Shown in pieces: positions 47,930 through 60,296 of a DNA stretch of 64,000 bases. How positions within the stretch are numbered: position 1 is the first letter of the stretch; every line of letters starts with the position of its first letter. The translations under genes and the position numbers were made by a program. A model generated the notes under the pieces. The model was not told the DNA's origin, ran no database searches, and saw only the letters and a list, made by a program, of their open reading frames with translations. Source of the stretch: Candidatus Thorarchaeota archaeon (GTDB taxonomy: Archaea > Asgardarchaeota > Thorarchaeia > Thorarchaeales > Thorarchaeaceae); the NCBI GenBank assembly GCA_021498125.1, contig JAIZWL010000006.1, positions 62,001 through 126,000 on the forward strand. Direction: 5' to 3'.

Positions 47930-48904
47930 ATGGACTTTGAAAGAGATAACAACCCATCCGATGAAGAAGACTGGACAGAAGACCTGACTCAACCAGAGCA
48001 GCCTGAGCCACGTGGGATCACACATGAAGACCTACAGCAGCAACCCACCTCTACTGAGACGCCCTCCGAGAGCGCTTCTGTCCCGACACCGCCTCCATCA
48101 CGTCACAGACCTTGGAGTGTCTTGGTTCATCTTCTGAATCTGGTGATGCTCGGATTTTCTGTGGCTATTGTCTATGTGTATTTTATGCAGGACGTTGATA
48201 GTGCTGTACGTGATGTCCTTGCAGTTGCAGCAGGCGTGCTTTTTGCTATACTGTTCCTTGCCATGCTGATCTCAATTCTTCTCAAGTCACCCTTTAGCAT
48301 AATGGGCGCAAAAACACATGAAGAGATGATCTCCCGTTACGGTCCAACAGCCAAGAGTAAGCCCATTATCGCAATTAATGTGGACGAGCCATTTGTGCAG
48401 TATCATGCCACGACTGTGAAGATCACGGTGCGGAACATCTCATCGAGCTTGGGTCTGCGTGTGCGTTTCCACTCAATGGATCATATCTCTCCCTCAAGTA
48501 TCGACCTGCCACTTGCACCTGGTGAGACCGAGGCCATTGAGATCCAGCTTGTGCCGATCGCTGTTGGAGAGCGTGAGATCTCGATTGAGTTTGCTGACCT
48601 CTTTGATGCGGACGGCAATCTGATACCAAAGTTCGAGGCCAATACGCTCGCAGTAGAACGTTTCAGATACATTGCCCGAGAACCAGCCTTTGGCGGGATA
48701 ACGGCAAGTCAAGTACGCATTCTGAAGACTGTGGTCTCAGTTGCGACTGCACTGGTCGTCGGCTCGGGATTCATCCTTGCATTCTTTGGGGATGCTCTAG
48801 GTGGGTTTGACCAGATCATCAAGACCTACATGCCGATGCTTGTGATCTTGCAGGTTCCCGTCTTCTATCTCTATTTTGCATTGATGAATCGATTGCCTTC
48901 ATAG
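47930..48904 (+). CDS. Membrane protein with disordered N-terminus and Ig-like domain
   Basis: A 324-residue protein. Residues 1-60 are acidic and Pro/Thr/Gln-rich, likely disordered. Two transmembrane helices follow (about 68-90 and 98-118). Residues 140-235 are an Ig-like beta domain (KPIIAINVDEPFVQYHATTVKITVRN and PSSIDLPLAPGETEAIEIQLVPIAVG). The last 80 residues have two more membrane segments. It follows the ECF-S-like gene with a 3-bp gap, so both are translated from one message. No family name can be given. A terminator follows the stop. Confidence 0.72.
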   Translation: MDFERDNNPSDEEDWTEDLTQPEQPEPRGITHEDLQQQPTSTETPSESASVPTPPPSRHRPWSVLVHLLNLVMLGFSVAIVYVYFMQDVDSAVRDVLAVAAGVLFAILFLAMLISILLKSPFSIMGAKTHEEMISRYGPTAKSKPIIAINVDEPFVQYHATTVKITVRNISSSLGLRVRFHSMDHISPSSIDLPLAPGETEAIEIQLVPIAVGEREISIEFADLFDADGNLIPKFEANTLAVERFRYIAREPAFGGITASQVRILKTVVSVATALVVGSGFILAFFGDALGGFDQIIKTYMPMLVILQVPVFYLYFALMNRLPS

Positions 48905-48914
48905 AACAAGATTG

Positions 48915-48957
48915 CGGGCCCTATACTCTTGTAGGGCCCGTCACACTCTTTTTTATT
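48915..48957 (+). terminator. Terminator after the Ig-like membrane pair
   Basis: A 9-bp perfect stem CGGGCCCTA/TAGGGCCCG (48915-48940) is followed by a T-run (48949-48957). Confidence 0.8.
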
Positions 48958-48978
48958 TCAGAGATATCTTGCGGTTCT

Positions 48979-49524
48979 CTACATGAACTCTCTAAATATT
49001 ATTCCTATAAATGATCCAAGCATGGACGCGAACAAGACAAAGAAGAAGTAGACTGCGGCCACAAAGGCTCCGGTGATGATAAATTCTCCAATGCCAATTT
49101 CAGGAACAAGCATGCCTGGCACCGCAAGGAACAGGATGAGCAGGATGACGAAGAATATTGAGGCAAGAATTGACGAGATTAGTGTGTGCTTTAATTGTGG
49201 CACTGTCATTCCGATGGGGATTGCAAGCGCAATAGGCAGATAAAACATGAAGACAGCCGTATCAGGAAGCGCGTCTATCACAATTGCGGCAAAAATCGCT
49301 GTATCAATAACGGCTATGAGTAGAGGCATCAGCAGCATGACGATTAAGTCGCGTCTGTCTTCTGGCATCGTCCAGAAAAGAAAACGCACCATGGGCACTC
49401 CTCTCTTACTGAGTTGCCGTTCTTCTCTCGGTAAGGGTCGTAGAAACGTCTTTGCTCTCTCTTCATCATCGTCTTCAATTGGGGGCTCTGTTCGATAACG
49501 TGATTCGTCGCTCATCTCTGCCAC
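48979..49524 (-). CDS. Four-TM membrane protein with acidic N-terminus
   Basis: A 181-residue protein. A charged cytosolic N-terminus of about 60 residues (EPPIEDDDEERAKTFLRPLPREERQ) precedes four or five hydrophobic helices to the end. No recognised motif. It is convergent with the Ig-like membrane pair and divergent from the isomerase gene, so it is monocistronic. Confidence 0.65.
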   Translation of the reverse strand: MAEMSDESRYRTEPPIEDDDEERAKTFLRPLPREERQLSKRGVPMVRFLFWTMPEDRRDLIVMLLMPLLIAVIDTAIFAAIVIDALPDTAVFMFYLPIALAIPIGMTVPQLKHTLISSILASIFFVILLILFLAVPGMLVPEIGIGEFIITGAFVAAVYFFFVLFASMLGSFIGIIFREFM

Positions 49525-52285: not shown

Positions 52286-53374
52286 CTAAGGCTTCATCAA
52301 TGCAAGGATCTCGCGAAGTCTTGGTTCGGCCAGCATGGCATGTTGGAGTTTGCAGAGCAATTTCGTTACTTCTGCATAGATTACTTTTCTATGGTCATCC
52401 GAGTCCGATTCCGCGTTCTGGAGTGCCTCTTGGCATCGCTGATTAATCCGCTTGATGATTCGCTTTTCTAGTTCGGGACCACCCCAGCCAAAGCCGTCAA
52501 AGGCAGTCTGGGCCTCAGAGATCTTGTCCTGAACTCGAAGGTCCTCGCCCTTCAGCAAGTTCTCCAGTCCCGTAAAGTATCGTGCGACTGCCCGTTCTAT
52601 TCGTTCAGTCTCGGATGGAGAGAGTTGCTTCTCCTGTGGTCTGTGTTTCATGAGGTCCTGTAGGAGTCGGGCGCCGGGTGCCTCTGTGAGAAGGCCCTTG
52701 ATGATCCGGGTCAGGAATTCCGAGGGAACTTGGATCACGTCGCCAATATACGGTGAGTCTGATTGATATCTGTGGATCTCCCGCATCACTTCGAACCAGA
52801 AGGTCGGAAGTAGGACATGACAACGGCGAGAGTATTGTTGGATGAGGCGATTCGCCTGTGATATGAGTCCCCACTCATCATCCTCCATATCGACCCGTTT
52901 AAAGGGCTCTCTTGCCTCTTCCTCTGCATGCTCATCGGGCAATAGTGGTACAAGACCAGCCGCCCTCTCTCCCGGAAGAGGAGCGGCAGTCGTTGTTGGT
53001 TCTGCACCTGCAGCTGGAGCAGTCTTTGCAGGGGTTGACCCTTCAAGCAATGAGAGGATCTCCGCAGCCGTACTTTGGGTCTCAACATCCTTTGCCTTCT
53101 GAGAGAGCTTGGGTAAGATGCTCTCCAGCTGGGCCATCCTCTTGACGATCAGGCTAAGAATGTTCGCGGTGGATGAAGGTGTTGCTTCGTTGGTGAGGGT
53201 CTCCTCGATCCATTTGCGTGTTCTCTTCAGTCCCTGAGTCAGCGAATCGACCCTGTCCGGGTCCACGTTCCCTGAGACCTGCGAACTGAGAATAAAATGG
53301 ATCAGTGTGGAATTAAGTGTCTCAATCAAGAGCAGCCTATCCACGAGATCCTCTATGCGAAACTCAGAACTCAA
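52286..53374 (-). CDS. Helical protein of the tubulin-like operon (362 aa)
   Basis: A 362-residue, largely alpha-helical protein with TTG 53374 as start, preceded by a strong Shine-Dalgarno GGAGGGG that lies just past the stop of the tubulin-like gene. An N-terminal helical bundle (residues 1-115) is followed by an Ala/Thr/Pro-rich linker (about 115-150) and a C-terminal helical domain with a short conserved-looking segment DDEWGLISQANRLIQQYSRRCHVLLPTFWFEV and FDGFGWGGPELEKR. No enzyme or DNA-binding motif is seen. It is the last gene of a three-gene operon with the tubulin-like protein and the 910-aa helical protein, so it is likely to be a partner of that GTPase. Confidence 0.8.
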   Translation of the reverse strand: MSSEFRIEDLVDRLLLIETLNSTLIHFILSSQVSGNVDPDRVDSLTQGLKRTRKWIEETLTNEATPSSTANILSLIVKRMAQLESILPKLSQKAKDVETQSTAAEILSLLEGSTPAKTAPAAGAEPTTTAAPLPGERAAGLVPLLPDEHAEEEAREPFKRVDMEDDEWGLISQANRLIQQYSRRCHVLLPTFWFEVMREIHRYQSDSPYIGDVIQVPSEFLTRIIKGLLTEAPGARLLQDLMKHRPQEKQLSPSETERIERAVARYFTGLENLLKGEDLRVQDKISEAQTAFDGFGWGGPELEKRIIKRINQRCQEALQNAESDSDDHRKVIYAEVTKLLCKLQHAMLAEPRLREILALMKP

Positions 53375-53387
53375 TCTTGCCCCTCCG

Positions 53388-54767
53388 TTATGCTACTGGT
53401 GTGCCTGATTCCATGTAGTAACTGAATAGCTCCCTGAAATCGTTGATCGCGTTCACCAATTCTTTTCGTGTTGTGCCCTTTGATCTCATGAACCAGCTCT
53501 GCTTCAGAGGTGAGGGTCCGCTGTGCAGGTTGACCAGTTGAGTTGCCTCATTGATCAGTTGCACCAGCTCTGGAATCTTTGGTAGGCCGAGTAGTACAAG
53601 CAGATCGACCGGGGCATCGGGATTGTCCTTCTGGACGTAGCACGGAGTGATTGCCGCACCCGGTGCAATGAACTTGTCAAGTGCCTCTTTGAGATGCATA
53701 CCATATTCAGCCTTTGAGATGTGTCTTGGTCCACTGAACACGTAATAGACACTCTCCGCATTTGGCTGGTCTCCGATGTCCGCGTATGACCATTCTCTGA
53801 TCGTGTAGTCGATCATGCTCTTGATCTGTTGGGGCATGCTGCCAGCATCAGGGATCAGTCCCACATCTGTATAGAGCGCAGGAACAACTACTGGGTCCAG
53901 CTTTCTTGCATAGTCCGCAAGGTCTGTTGTTGGAAAGACATCCTTGCCTGCCTCGTGTACTCCGGGTGAGAGCATGGCCTCGACCACATCCAACGCTAGC
54001 GGGTTGACGAGCTCAACAAATGCCTGCTCGGTCCTCTGTTCCAGTTCTCCTGACTCTTCCAATGTCGAGGGCACCATTCGCTCGATCTGTCCGATATCTG
54101 CGATATCCACGTTGAGCTCTCGCTGAAGGTAATCGACACTATCGGCTCTACGAGAATTGAGAATTCGTTTGAGCATGGTTCTGTTGCTCAATAAGATCGT
54201 CAGGTCCGCACCGCGTTCTTGAAGCTGAGCCCTGAGCAGTTTTGAGACCGCCCAGATCGAGTTGAGTGCCTCCGATGACTGTCCCTCAAACGGTAGGACT
54301 CCAATGACGTAGACGAAGATCCGTCTTCCCTCTTCTTCTTGGAATCGTTGCTTGAGGAGTTCGATCAGGGCAGGAGTGCCTCCACAGCCCGTCCCGCCTC
54401 CGAGGCTGGTAAAGATGCTGAAGCCAGAGACCCCTTCAAAACCGAGATTGCTAAGCTGGTCAAAGATGATGTCCTTCGATTCCATGACCGCGTTGTAGCC
54501 GTCCATGAACCGACCACCGACACCGATCTCACTGGCACCGTACAGCATTGTGTGTTCTTTTGGAATGTCATATTTTTCTCGGACCTTGGTCAGATCCGCT
54601 CTGTCCGTGTTCATGAGAAGATAGCCTCGGACACGCGAAGGCAGCCTCTTGTCATGGCTTGCCTTCAGGTACGAACCTACAATATTCGAACCACATTCAC
54701 CGATCCCGATTGCAAAGACCTCTGCGGCCTTTGTCGCCTCTTCTTCACTACCTCTTCCTCGTAGCAT
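53388..54767 (-). CDS. Divergent tubulin/FtsZ-superfamily GTPase
   Basis: A 459-residue GTPase of the tubulin/FtsZ superfamily. The nucleotide-binding T1 loop is GIGECGSNIV (residues 21-30), the signature (T4) is GGGTGCGG (123-130), and a T7-like segment is NPLALDVVEAM (N255, D260, E263), where the acidic residues would complete the active site of the next subunit in a polymer. This differs from canonical FtsZ (NxDxxD) and from CetZ or eukaryotic tubulin. Another G-rich loop (GASEIGVGGRFMDGYNAV) fits T3. The C-terminal extension is longer than in FtsZ. The protein is cytosolic and probably polymerises. It lies between the 910-aa helical protein (16 bp upstream) and the 362-aa protein (13 bp downstream). 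Confidence 0.9.
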   Translation of the reverse strand: MLRGRGSEEEATKAAEVFAIGIGECGSNIVGSYLKASHDKRLPSRVRGYLLMNTDRADLTKVREKYDIPKEHTMLYGASEIGVGGRFMDGYNAVMESKDIIFDQLSNLGFEGVSGFSIFTSLGGGTGCGGTPALIELLKQRFQEEEGRRIFVYVIGVLPFEGQSSEALNSIWAVSKLLRAQLQERGADLTILLSNRTMLKRILNSRRADSVDYLQRELNVDIADIGQIERMVPSTLEESGELEQRTEQAFVELVNPLALDVVEAMLSPGVHEAGKDVFPTTDLADYARKLDPVVVPALYTDVGLIPDAGSMPQQIKSMIDYTIREWSYADIGDQPNAESVYYVFSGPRHISKAEYGMHLKEALDKFIAPGAAITPCYVQKDNPDAPVDLLVLLGLPKIPELVQLINEATQLVNLHSGPSPLKQSWFMRSKGTTRKELVNAINDFRELFSYYMESGTPVA

Positions 54768-54783
54768 AGTTGTCGCCTCGTTC

Positions 54784-57471
54784 TTATCCGCTTTTTCGTG
54801 TCATTGAATCCGCAATCTCTCTTAGAGCCCATGATAGATATGAGCTGATGTCCTCTCTGCTGAAGGTCTCCTTGATTCGTTTTGTCTGATCCTCAAGAAA
54901 CTTCTCGCGAGCATCAGCACCCATTGTTGGACTGAATCCAGTCAGGTACATCTTGAGGGACTTGTGCCAGTCATCCATCTTCTCGACCTGTGCCAGCCAC
55001 CCCTCACGGACCTCTTTCAGCTTCTCGAAATACGTCAGTGCATCTTCAAGCACGGTCGTATCGGCAAGCTGTTTCTCCAAGTCGCTGATCTGGTTGACCG
55101 GATAGATGATCTTGGAAAAGTCCCTTGGGTGCTTCTCGATTACACGCTCAATTGTTGCGTAATAACTACTAGCTGCACGTAGTCTATTGTCGAACTGCTG
55201 GCTGTCCTTGGCGGCCACACTCTTCAGCACTGAGAGCATCTCCTCCTGAATATTCGCCAGTGTCAGACAGACTTCGAGAGCCTCGTTCACATGTTTCGAT
55301 TCGCTCTCTAACTGTTTTGGTACCTCTTCGAGAAGGATCTTGAGCCGTTGCACGAACTCGCTCATCCCTTGCTTCTCAAATATGTCAACAGCACCTTTGA
55401 TCTGCACATATGCCGTATTGGCCCTGTCTTTGATCTTGTTATGCAAGTTCGGTGAGGTCGTCAGTGCCATGATTTTGTCGAAGGCCTCCGCTGCCTCTTC
55501 GAGGTCTCTTGGGGGTGACTCGTGTACGGCCTTCAGTGTGATGAGTTCTGTGTCCACGTCGACACCAATGTTCTTTGCCTGCTGGAATCTCTCAATGAGT
55601 TCATCGACCTTGTCCATTAAGGTCTCGATGACCTTCTTACTGATCTTTTTCTCATACAGCTCTACCATCTTTCTTGCAATCGTTGGCAAGCTGAATACAT
55701 TGTCTGCGGCCACGCCAATACTGTTCAGTTCAGCAATGGCCTCCTGGACCTCAGAGGGAATCTCAAATCCGGCACCCATCAGCTTTGCCGCAGCAAGACG
55801 GATCTTAACACCAAGACGATATCTCATATTCTCAAGTGCCTCTTTGGCCTTGACCAAGATACCGTCCTTGAGCGCTTTCATCTCCGAACGAATGATACCG
55901 AAATCTTGGAGGGTCTTGATCTTTTCAGAACCCGCCTCAAGTTCTCCTGTGATTGGCATGAAGATGTCTGCATACGCTGGCTTGATTGTCTGAAGGTCTT
56001 GGATGATCGCATCTATCTCTTGGATGCATGCCTCTCTGAATGTGGCAACTCCGCTATCCACAGCGGTTCTGAGGCTGTTCAAAGACTCCATGAGGTAGAC
56101 AATGCCACCTTGGATGTCTTCGACCTTTGGAGCCTTCTTGCCCAACTGCGCATAGTCCAAGACTCTATCGGCCGATGTGGCGAGCTCATTGAATCTCGCT
56201 ATGTATTCCCGAATCTTGTCAGTGATGTGATTAATGGCATCGTCATGCATTGACTTGGCCTTTGTGTAAATCCGAATGAGATCATCAATTGGTGCCTTCT
56301 CCAGTTTGTCCCTCGACTCGGCAATGAACTTGCGTACCTCAATGACATCTTTGATCCCTGTGTCATCGGGGACATCAGTGGCCCGCTGGAGTTCTTCCAG
56401 TAGGTCCTCAAGCTTCCCTTTCAGTGAGATTCTGACCTGTCCCTCCCATTCCACCATTTTCTGGTAGGCGGATAATAATGGTGCGACATCATCGGTTTCT
56501 GTGCTGAGCGCTGGTGCTGGTGGGATGATATCAGAAGTTGTTGGAATTCCTCCGGCCACGATCTTTGAAGTGATCTCATGTTGCATGTTGATGATGCGGT
56601 CTCGGAGCATATGTGCCATCTGTTGCTTGGCCGAGAACAGTTGGTTCTCAAGGCTCAGCAGTGTTGTGAGATCAGTGGCTGCCGAGGCATCACGCGCAAG
56701 CAGTCGTAGCTTCTGGGTAAAGTCCATTGGAAGATCCAGCCCGAGTCTGGAGGCGGTGCTGATGGACGCCTGCAGGGACTCGATATCTGACATTAGTGAG
56801 GCACCGAGCATTCTCCCCACTTCGCCCTTTCGCCCATCTAGATAACCTCGTTCCTTTACGAGCTTCTCTCTAAGAATGATCAAGTCCGAGAGAGACAGGA
56901 GTGAGATATCATCAGTAGATACAGAGGTTGCAACCTCACCTCTGTCTATAGTAATATGGCGTTCGTAGGTCTCGACCATACCCTTGTTCTCATCTAGAAG
57001 ATTCTTTACCTCGCGCATCATCTCTTGATGTAGACTGGCGTACTTTTTCGTGAAGACATCAGCAAAATCGTACAGGGTTGCGGCATCTCCAAAATCTCCC
57101 GCTCCGATCGATGGAAAATTAGTCGCGGCGAGTGCTTTTGCCTCGTTGGGCTTTATTGCTTGAATCTTTGGTATGAGATTTACAACCTGTCGTTGTTCAC
57201 GGCGGAATAGATCCGCAAAGTCTCGAACAATCCGCATAAAGTCTTCTTCGAGTTCCTTATCTGCCTTCTCCAATACGGATTGGAGCTTCCTCTTCTTCAT
57301 GAATCCGGCGCTTCCGAGCTCGTTCTCGATTCGAGTGAGTTTTGCATAAGCATCATAGAGCTGGCGCAGCTGTCTATCTGTCTGCTCTTCGAGTTGGGGA
57401 TTGATAGTAATCAGCATTCCTTTCATCTCGGAGAGCTTGTCGAGCTCTCGTCGCCACTTGTGCGAGTCCAT
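54784..57471 (-). CDS. Long helical coiled-coil protein upstream of the tubulin-like gene
   Basis: About 895 residues from the ATG at 57471, which has GGAGGA 7 bp upstream (the open frame extends to 57516). The protein is almost all alpha-helical with many heptad-like runs and no membrane segment. Internal repeats are visible: three segments of similar design, near residues 235 (ASRLGLDLPMDF), 560 (KLMGAGFEIPSEV) and 625 (QQAKNIGVDVDTEL), each a helix ending in a glycine-acidic-hydrophobic turn and followed by a further helical pair of 40-50 residues. This recalls spectrin-like or structural scaffolds. It is the first gene of the operon. The composition and context suggest a partner or scaffold of the tubulin-like GTPase; this is inference. 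Confidence 0.82.
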   Translation of the reverse strand: MDSHKWRRELDKLSEMKGMLITINPQLEEQTDRQLRQLYDAYAKLTRIENELGSAGFMKKRKLQSVLEKADKELEEDFMRIVRDFADLFRREQRQVVNLIPKIQAIKPNEAKALAATNFPSIGAGDFGDAATLYDFADVFTKKYASLHQEMMREVKNLLDENKGMVETYERHITIDRGEVATSVSTDDISLLSLSDLIILREKLVKERGYLDGRKGEVGRMLGASLMSDIESLQASISTASRLGLDLPMDFTQKLRLLARDASAATDLTTLLSLENQLFSAKQQMAHMLRDRIINMQHEITSKIVAGGIPTTSDIIPPAPALSTETDDVAPLLSAYQKMVEWEGQVRISLKGKLEDLLEELQRATDVPDDTGIKDVIEVRKFIAESRDKLEKAPIDDLIRIYTKAKSMHDDAINHITDKIREYIARFNELATSADRVLDYAQLGKKAPKVEDIQGGIVYLMESLNSLRTAVDSGVATFREACIQEIDAIIQDLQTIKPAYADIFMPITGELEAGSEKIKTLQDFGIIRSEMKALKDGILVKAKEALENMRYRLGVKIRLAAAKLMGAGFEIPSEVQEAIAELNSIGVAADNVFSLPTIARKMVELYEKKISKKVIETLMDKVDELIERFQQAKNIGVDVDTELITLKAVHESPPRDLEEAAEAFDKIMALTTSPNLHNKIKDRANTAYVQIKGAVDIFEKQGMSEFVQRLKILLEEVPKQLESESKHVNEALEVCLTLANIQEEMLSVLKSVAAKDSQQFDNRLRAASSYYATIERVIEKHPRDFSKIIYPVNQISDLEKQLADTTVLEDALTYFEKLKEVREGWLAQVEKMDDWHKSLKMYLTGFSPTMGADAREKFLEDQTKRIKETFSREDISSYLSWALREIADSMTRKSG

Positions 57472-57720
57472 TCGATTTCCTCCATATAATGCGGCATTTT
57501 GCCATTTGAATTCCATTTCTTAAGTGTATTCTGGATACGTATGAATGGGTATCACAAGGTGTCAGATAAGTATACCATATATGCTTACTTAAGCGAGCGG
57601 CGAATGTCGGTTTCTTAACGAAAAATCGGCATATGTGACGAGATTTTTGAGACCAGAAAACGCCTTAAACGACTGTGGTCATTCGTCTTTAACCACAACA
57701 GGATAGTTAGGGACGATAAC

Positions 57721-59670
57721 ATGGCCGATGCTCCGGGAGGAACTGGTGACACATTACCACTGACTAGCAATCCGATCACGATACTTGAATCAGAAGCAGT
57801 AAGTATTACACATGACAGCGAGTTTCTCTATGCAGCCTGTCAAGACAACACTGTTCGAGTGTGGTCCAAGTCTGATTGGCAATTGGTCGCAACTCTTGGT
57901 GAGACAAGTACTCCACCTCTACGTGTTCACGTGGACAAGGAACACATCTATGCGACTTGTGAAAAGCGAGTCTATGTATGGAATCGAGTCTCCTGGGGGA
58001 TGGTGGGTTGGTTCGAACTCTCTTATGGCGCTCTTACTTCCGTTCTATATGAGGACAGTTTCTTAGTTGGTGCAAGAGAGGGCCGTCTGGTTTCCATTAA
58101 CAAGAACACTCACGAGACCTCTAGTTGGCAGCTCTACAAATCAGATGTCACTGCGATCTGGACCGACAATACCATTATCTGTACTGCTGCGCGAAAAGAT
58201 GAGAGTAGGGTCTGGACACGACAAGAGGGAAAGGCTCCAGTTGAGATCGCAAAGCTTGAGAAGAAAGGTCGATGTACCGCAATTGTAGGGACGAACGAGT
58301 ACGTCATCTTGGGAATGTCGGGGGGCGAGATCCAGATCTGGGACCGGCTCGAGTGGACCCTGATCAAGGCGTTGGAGTCGGTCAACTCCCATGCGGTCAC
58401 AAGTCTCTGGACAAATAATCACTATTTAATAATCGGGCTGTCCCAAAATATTGTATCCATTTATGATCTGAAGGGTGGTTCTGAGATCGGCCAGATCCAA
58501 CTGGATGGTCAAAAGATCGAGGCTGTGGATGCTGATCACGATCGAATCTATGTCGCCGCATCCGATGGTATTCATGTTGAACAATTACTGCTGGGCGGGT
58601 CAAGTGTTGATCTTGACACGGACGTTGGGATTGAGTTTGGTCGGAGCCTGTTGAAGACCTCGCCGTATGATGTACTTGAGATCGTGTTGACCCGCAAAAA
58701 AGAGGGTGATGTATTCCTTCAGGACGGACAATATCACGAGGCCGTTGCGGCCTACGAAAATGCATTGCAGCTCCTTATTGATAGCACCCACGCTCTATTA
58801 GAAGTCCCCAAAGAACGTGAAGAGATCACACAGGACGTGAACCGGCGTCTGGGCCGAGCATTGCTTCACTCCAAGATCATTGAGTTACAAGAACTTAGCA
58901 AACGGATTGAACAGATCTCTGATGAATTCGACATGCGTGGTAGAACGGAGATCGCAGAGTCTGAGATGAATGCTCTGTGGACTGAGACACGTCGTGCCAT
59001 CAAGGAGGCACGAGTGCTTGCCGAAGCGCAGGCTGGAGATATGCTCAGTTATCAGCTGACCTTCATTGCCGACACGCTCGATGATGATCTCGCGTCTGCT
59101 GAGGAGAAGGCCAATCGTTACAAGGAGAAGGTCAATCAGGCCCGAGCGATGGTCTCTAATATCATGGCCGAGTGGCGGTGGATGGAGCGACGCCGTACGA
59201 CACTTGAACAGCGTCAGTCTTTTCTCGAGTCGGCCATAAGTCGGATCGAACTTGCTTTGAAGGACACACCACAGGATGATCAAGAAGTGATCGGCATCCT
59301 GTCAAATGCAATCACCGAGTATAAACGGCTCCTTGATCAGATCTCCAGGATCATCAGTGCTGCTGACAGTAAGGAGGCAGAAGAATTACGAAGCCGTGAA
59401 GAAGCTCTCTCTGCGATCACAGGTCTATTACAGGTCATGCCCAAGAAGCGCGATGTACTGTTGGCGATCTCTGATATTGCTGAACGAAAACGCGAGTATG
59501 AACGGTTGATGAGCGCCCTGAAACAAGCTCTTGAGACCGCGAACAAGTTCAAACTCAAAGAGGAGGCCCGCAACATTATGAATGAGATCGAGGCGTTGGA
59601 AGGTCTCAATGGTTCAGTCGGGAACAATCTTGTCTCTGAAGCAAAATCCGTTGAGGGCGCTCCTGAGTGA
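57721..59670 (+). CDS. Beta-propeller protein with helical/coiled-coil C-terminal half
   Basis: A 649-residue protein. The first 285 residues form seven or so WD40-like blades, each with a core such as CQDNTVRVWSKSDWQLVATL, GGEIQIWDRLEWTLIKAL, or NIVSIYDLKGG; the tryptophans at the blade ends are visible. A helical segment follows (about 320-390, RKKEGDVFLQDGQYHEAVAAY), similar to a single TPR or MIT-like hairpin. Residues 390-640 are continuous coiled coil. It is divergent from the tubulin-like operon (250 bp between the starts) and convergent with the TPR gene. Eukaryotic-like in design; a scaffold role for the neighbouring system is a reasonable but unproven inference. Confidence 0.82.
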   Translation: MADAPGGTGDTLPLTSNPITILESEAVSITHDSEFLYAACQDNTVRVWSKSDWQLVATLGETSTPPLRVHVDKEHIYATCEKRVYVWNRVSWGMVGWFELSYGALTSVLYEDSFLVGAREGRLVSINKNTHETSSWQLYKSDVTAIWTDNTIICTAARKDESRVWTRQEGKAPVEIAKLEKKGRCTAIVGTNEYVILGMSGGEIQIWDRLEWTLIKALESVNSHAVTSLWTNNHYLIIGLSQNIVSIYDLKGGSEIGQIQLDGQKIEAVDADHDRIYVAASDGIHVEQLLLGGSSVDLDTDVGIEFGRSLLKTSPYDVLEIVLTRKKEGDVFLQDGQYHEAVAAYENALQLLIDSTHALLEVPKEREEITQDVNRRLGRALLHSKIIELQELSKRIEQISDEFDMRGRTEIAESEMNALWTETRRAIKEARVLAEAQAGDMLSYQLTFIADTLDDDLASAEEKANRYKEKVNQARAMVSNIMAEWRWMERRRTTLEQRQSFLESAISRIELALKDTPQDDQEVIGILSNAITEYKRLLDQISRIISAADSKEAEELRSREEALSAITGLLQVMPKKRDVLLAISDIAERKREYERLMSALKQALETANKFKLKEEARNIMNEIEALEGLNGSVGNNLVSEAKSVEGAPE

Positions 59671-59675
59671 GCGGA

Positions 59676-60296
59676 CTATGAGGCTATCTCAATATCAAAA
59701 TCTTCGATGGAGAGGGTCCCTGACTTGATGATGCTGATCCAGTCCTCGGCAAGAAACTCAAGCTCCGGGTCAATCGAGAAGGAGAGTTCCGCGGCTGCGA
59801 GTGCTTCTTGATACTCGCCTATGAAGAAATGGCAGATCGCATAGTTATACCATGCTGGTGCAGAGTTGGGGTTGAGAAGGATAGCCCGTTCAAGTGCAGC
59901 AATCGCCTCTTCAAAACTCTCCAATATCATGTACGCATTTGCAAGGAGCAACCACTTACGCTGATTTCGTGGTTCGAGTTTCAGACTCTTTTGCAGTGCC
60001 TCAATTCCCTCATCGCTCTCGTTCAGCAGCAGGTGTAGGTATGCCTTGTCAGTCCAAGCACGCTCTGACTTGGGATCTATCTGGATGATGTGTTCTAGGG
60101 CGGATATTGCATCCTTTGGTTTCTTCAGCGCTAGGCTCACAGCGACCATCTGTTCCCAGACACTCTTGTTTCGAGGATAGAGCGATGCACCTCTCTCAAG
60201 CGTCTTGCGTGCCTCATCATATCTGGCCTTTGAGATCAGTGAGGCTGCTTGTGATAGTATCTGTTTGATACCACTGCGCGAGGTGTGGTTGGTCAT
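59676..60296 (-). CDS. TPR-repeat protein
   Basis: A 206-residue protein with five tetratricopeptide repeats, visible as A-x(3)-G/A-x(2)-L/Y-P spacings, for instance KARYDEARKTLERGASLYPRN, KPKDAISALEHIIQIDPKS, ESDEGIEALQKSLKLEPRN, SFEEAIAALERAILLNPNS and EYQEALAAAELSFSIDPEL. No signal peptide and no enzyme domain. It mediates protein-protein contacts. The stop is 5 bp from the stop of the convergent beta-propeller gene. Confidence 0.88.
   Translation of the reverse strand: MTNHTSRSGIKQILSQAASLISKARYDEARKTLERGASLYPRNKSVWEQMVAVSLALKKPKDAISALEHIIQIDPKSERAWTDKAYLHLLLNESDEGIEALQKSLKLEPRNQRKWLLLANAYMILESFEEAIAALERAILLNPNSAPAWYNYAICHFFIGEYQEALAAAELSFSIDPELEFLAEDWISIIKSGTLSIEDFDIEIAS

Follow-up and report, generated by a model that had tools for sequence, protein, structure and literature searches.

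The question raised by this locus is whether three closely spaced genes of a Candidatus Thorarchaeota archaeon (GCA_021498125.1; 3.1 Mb, 98% complete) encode a cytoskeletal module built around a tubulin-like GTPase other than the FtsZ of cell division, as had been proposed from the DNA letters alone (the sequence-only reading). The window, i.e. the whole stretch of DNA analysed, comprises 64,000 nt of contig JAIZWL010000006.1. Three ORFs succeed one another on its minus strand in the order H910-TLP-H362, with gaps of 16 bp (H910/TLP) and 13 bp (TLP/H362), so that the arrangement described in that reading, a GTPase flanked by a long helical protein of about 900 aa and a helical protein of 362 aa, was recovered. 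TLP, the tubulin-superfamily GTPase (53388..54767, minus strand), has 459 aa. H910 (54784..57516, minus strand), a long helical-repeat protein predicted to be a rod or scaffold, has 910 aa from the first ATG; an alternative start at Met16 (base 57471) would give 895 aa, in line with the 895-896 aa found in some relatives. H362 (52286..53374, minus strand), the helical protein of 362 aa, starts with TTG, and the strong Shine-Dalgarno sequence that had been noticed in front of it, CGGAGGGGCAAGA (also given as CGGAGGGG), is present; TTG or GTG is the start of this gene in most relatives sampled as well. Upstream lies a divergent gene on the plus strand (57721..59670). The 204-bp intergenic region between it and H910 (57517..57720), delimited by the ORF coordinates, is the probable promoter region of the operon, since it is the sole sizeable gap upstream.

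The assignment of TLP to the tubulin superfamily is based on profile searches, a structure model and conserved motifs. The PF00091 profile matched with 70.5 bits (cut-off 33), and the cut-offs of TIGR00065, the FtsZ equivalog (31.5 bits, cut-off 295.2), and of PF13809, Tubulin_2 (17.1 bits, cut-off 27), were missed. The AF2 model (pLDDT 82.7, pTM 0.84) predicts a full tubulin/CetZ fold that includes core helix H7 and the C-terminal domain; it ends in a short tail of low confidence, and a long linker is absent. In a Foldseek search against the PDB this model gave 891 matches at E <= 0.001, of which the best was CetZ2 (1.1e-18), and the top structures were CetZ2, CetZ1, OdinTubulin and AtubA. 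The tubulin signature reported earlier, GGGTGCGG, is present; T1 reads GIGECGSN (residues 21-28) and T4 reads GGGTGCG (123-129), and the T1, T4 and T6-type motifs are invariant in 33 sequences. Identity amounts to 78-93% inside the Thorarchaeota family; copies from six further Asgard families are 42-63% identical, which puts the observation far beyond chance. In dN/dS comparisons synonymous sites were saturated. A contig search with the single TLP protein found Thorarchaeota records plus one whose label was only 'archaeon'.

Trees were calculated with TLP, Asgard FtsZ, bacterial FtsZ, five CetZ, OdinTubulin as the sole tubulin and T408, a haloarchaeal plasmid protein. TLP formed a clade of its own in both trees (support 100/100 in one, 95/96 in the other), outside the FtsZ clade (100/99) and outside the five CetZ (100/98), and in the tree with 95/96 each of FtsZ, CetZ, T408 and TLP occupied one side of a branch. 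OdinTubulin joined TLP in one tree at a support of 54/10 and did not do so in the other; the TLP clade has a long stem, long branches were flagged, and the deep order was not resolved by these trees. TLP is supported as a distinct clade of the tubulin superfamily outside FtsZ and CetZ, and placement inside these clades beside normal division neighbours, which would have spoken against the earlier proposal, was not found. The source genome possesses two further tubulin homologues, called FtsZ1 and FtsZ2 because of their tree position, which makes TLP the third. One of their genes adjoins rpL4 and the other Spt5/L11/L1, SepF and two ESCRT-III genes are located elsewhere, away from the TLP locus, and the TLP gene is adjacent to neither ftsZ1, ftsZ2 nor sepF, in agreement with the claim that this GTPase is distinct from cell-division FtsZ.

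TLP could nevertheless be a third FtsZ of the division ring; H362 and H910 would then be additional divisome proteins. SepF is present in the source genome, at least one FtsZ was found in every TLP-bearing genome sampled, and in the sampled genomes of families f20 and f21 it was only one, so that TLP could share the job of FtsZ there. Against this stand the separate clade with its long stem, the distance of the gene from ftsZ1, ftsZ2 and sepF, the score far below the TIGR00065 cut-off and the short C-terminal tail, and we regard a divisome role as improbable compared with a filament system outside division. In Asgard genomes without TLP, two very divergent tubulin-like proteins with long tree branches were also encountered (L110 in G062 and L111 in G054; motifs SGGGTGSAG and GSGGTGVG).

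Among the closest known systems is CetZ (Haloferax CetZ1/CetZ2, PDB 4b46 and 4b45), providing the best Foldseek and sequence matches of TLP in the PDB and, like TLP, coexisting with FtsZ1/FtsZ2 as a tubulin-superfamily GTPase. It nonetheless forms a separate clade at about 16-18% identity, and the H362 and H910 genes were found only with TLP. Asgard FtsZ1/FtsZ2 share the GTP site, T4 and probably a DxxD-type T7 motif with TLP, but belong to their own clade, and the source genome carries both in addition. OdinTubulin and AtubA/B (PDB 7evb, 9hxc; PMC13394414) likewise exhibit an Asgard tubulin fold with tubulin-like C-terminal helices, with a TM-score of about 0.65 normalised by TLP, whereas identity is about 15% and TLP is a single gene with non-tubulin partners instead of an AtubA/B pair; the published account concerns AtubA/B/C of Loki- and Heimdallarchaeia (PMC13394414, 2026). 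FtsZl1/FtsZl2 (PF13809; PMC2875224, Makarova & Koonin, 2010) are divergent tubulin-superfamily proteins in an operon of uncharacterised partners as well; in contrast, no vWA, kinase or OmpA neighbours were seen at TLP loci, and the coiled coil of FtsZl1 lies within the tubulin-like protein itself.

The word 'new' has to be qualified for TLP, because CetZ-like clades 'Asg.Tub' (Asgard) and 'Halo.Tub' (Halobacterota), with coiled-coil neighbours without known function, are mentioned in PMC9871819 (Santana-Molina et al., 2023), and Asg.Tub may be TLP. The main text of that paper contains no description of a conserved three-gene set, a T7 loop or a repeat rod, and neither the three-gene set nor the T7 pair nor the repeat rod is described in the accessible parts of PMC9871819 and PMC13394414. 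A full-length alignment of T408 with TLP was obtained at E=1.8e-23. Halobacterium salinarum plasmid PHS2 (L131:372-15646) and a Natrinema plasmid (L129) carry several tubulin-like genes together with secreted or membrane proteins, and the tubulin-like protein of 407-408 aa from this cluster aligns with TLP in full length. Halo.Tub, for which quasi-tandem copies are reported in PMC9871819, resembles the haloarchaeal plasmid cluster of T408, and the cluster is probably the published Halo.Tub. Its secreted or membrane neighbours were compared with H362 and H910 as possible homologues and gave no signal.

Of particular interest is the T7 loop, as the sequence-only reading had named a 'T7-like' NPLALDVVEAM. 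This sequence exists, but most likely it is not T7: it sits inside helix H7 (residues 241-269) of the AF2 model, in the guanine-binding region, where F250 and N255 correspond, with a register shift of one residue, to the guanine-contacting Phe and Asn of FtsZ H7, and the position of its Asp (D260) varies between lineages, with D, E, R, Q or H. The likelier T7 loop, including the start of H8, is FPTTDLADY (residues 278-286; 53910..53936, minus strand). All 33 sequences compared retain its D282 and D285, which coincide with D209 and D212 of Escherichia coli FtsZ in the E-INS-i alignment, in which the region also coincides with VIDIKDY of T408 and NMDLMEM of OdinTubulin; compared with the FtsZ motif NxDxxD, Asn is replaced by Thr, and the alignment of the Asp pair comes from E-INS-i only. 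In the AF2 model the order is H7-T7-H8-S7, with FPTTDLADY forming a loop and a short helix before strand S7. The assignment, which combines one of four MAFFT modes with the predicted order of secondary structures, appears well supported and falls short of proof because the other three modes mis-registered the region; a short-segment profile alignment of TLP H7-S7 with FtsZ gave no signal.

Conservation also bears on whether TLP polymerises at all. It could act as a GTP-binding switch, or be a member that does not polymerise, and build a complex with H362 and H910 but no filaments; some tubulin-superfamily proteins polymerise poorly, and the partners are linked to TLP as tightly as subunits of a complex. 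Yet the nucleotide face is invariant and so is the presumed opposite one with T7 and its two Asp, for which head-to-tail contacts are the easiest explanation, and such a switch seems just as improbable as a third division FtsZ. A GTP-driven filament is preferred here.

The second pillar of this reading is the conservation of the gene set, and the alternative finding, three genes not co-conserved in relatives, did not materialise. TLP was detected in 72 of 228 Asgard genomes from seven families (75 matches at E <= 0.001 minus three weak ones in G038, G051 and G215), and the corresponding numbers for H362 and H910 are 68 and 70, in the identical seven families, with H362 and TLP together in 68 genomes. 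Because of shared ancestry these counts are not independent. The sole genome with a partner but without TLP has its H910 at a contig end. H910 lies upstream of TLP in 34/34 loci showing H910 and H362 downstream in 31/31, usually within tens of bases, and the order H910-TLP-H362 is kept in all seven families, while clustering of all neighbouring genes yielded no other gene common to the seven. In locus L051 TLP and H362 are now 8.2 kb apart, and in L072 4.3 kb separate H910 from TLP, with intact order in both; the former gap (L051:10642-18856) contains HEAT-repeat, TPR and esterase-like genes, the latter (L072:10637-14905) a single ORF of 1202 aa.

It might be argued that the three proteins share an operon without a common machine, TLP alone being cytoskeletal, for the partner sequences diverge quickly. 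This we consider quite improbable, given that the three genes stayed linked in seven families whereas every other neighbour was exchanged, and that their order was retained even where several kilobases came to lie between two genes. One machine of filament and partners remains the favoured reading. A second copy in family f20 (L062, L064, L077) consists of a 311-aa gene and paralogues of H910 and TLP; its lack of H362 is a point against the favoured reading. It adjoins genes of a cluster containing small GTPase-like proteins; the 311-aa gene (c44) was considered as a hidden H362 and gave no signal. A coiled-coil-like protein of 297 aa directly 3' of H362 (L061:11958-12851) occurs in f20 loci only, and its profile is unrelated to the module proteins.

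Both partners evolve much faster than TLP: outside the family, identity to the copy in the window is 15-27% for H910 and 22-30% for H362, compared with 42-61% for TLP, which likewise speaks against a joint module. None of the three proteins showed transmembrane segments by hydropathy. For H910 no convincing relatives were obtained in Pfam or PDB. Its profile self-aligns at an offset of about 138 positions, hydrophobicity has a period of 3.4-3.6 residues, and lengths of about 900, 1025, 1140-1170 and 1311 aa differ by added units of about 120 aa; owing to this offset, period and unit length, the sequences suggest a helical-repeat rod of variable length. H362, recognised by its AF2 model and its co-occurrence with TLP, comprises N-terminal helices (7-110), a disordered linker (112-151) and a compact C-terminal helical domain (160-362), with a mean pLDDT of 84 and blocks of 92-99 in the C-terminal domain. 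The model had no fold match in the PDB below E=0.28, and weak PDB matches of the profile (Bardet-Biedl protein, E=0.028; beta-tubulin cofactor A, E=0.19) were taken as chance. Although operons of a filament and an adaptor are typical of DNA-segregation systems, a TubZ-like system with one partner as adaptor is highly improbable in view of a chromosomal housekeeping neighbourhood and the lack of any DNA-binding domain found in H362 or H910. Moreover, searches with TLP gave nothing in phage records or in viral contigs, and among plasmids a single weak match (28% identity, 38% coverage); a viral or plasmid origin was rejected.

Overall, we consider it rather probable that TLP forms a GTP-driven filament outside division, with H910 as rod-like cross-linker and H362 as adaptor. 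The separate clade, the order and co-occurrence of the genes, the GTP-site motifs, the invariant Asp pair, the repeat architecture and the predicted tubulin fold were obtained by computation; polymerisation, hydrolysis, physical interaction and cellular role are what we infer here: the three genes would be one operon for a cytoskeletal module, in which TLP would bind GTP and polymerise head to tail as CetZ, FtsZ and tubulin do. The T7 loop (PTTDLADY, D282/D285) would enter the adjacent subunit at its GTP site and trigger hydrolysis there, resulting in a dynamic filament. H910 may be a soluble helical-repeat rod which bridges or spaces filaments or ties them to another structure, and H362, as adaptor or regulator, may bind filament or rod via its well-folded C-terminal domain. 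Because FtsZ1/FtsZ2/SepF and ESCRT-III would operate alongside it, the system would more likely serve the shape of the cell or its internal organisation than division. More tentatively, and with somewhat greater doubt than confidence, it could represent an undescribed third Asgard filament system that combines a GTPase of its own with a cross-linking repeat rod adjustable in length and a dedicated adaptor of new fold, separate from FtsZ, CetZ and tubulin and predating the split of the seven families. With its conserved tubulin-like GTPase and the two partners dedicated to it, the module would be a compact, expressible and directly testable three-protein system. TLP, as a putative deep branch of the superfamily distinct from those of FtsZ, CetZ and tubulin, bears together with its haloarchaeal relative on the origin of tubulin.

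The divergent gene next to H910 encodes, as had been read from the sequence, a WD40-like propeller followed by a coiled coil (649 aa; WD40/TPR Pfam matches), but its membership in the module was not upheld: most of the Thorarchaeota loci examined have it next to the module, the loci of the six other families gave no match, and it is regarded as a lineage-specific neighbour. A TPR protein and membrane proteins flank the region in the window (59676-60296 and 47930-49524), in a synteny kept in Thorarchaeota only.
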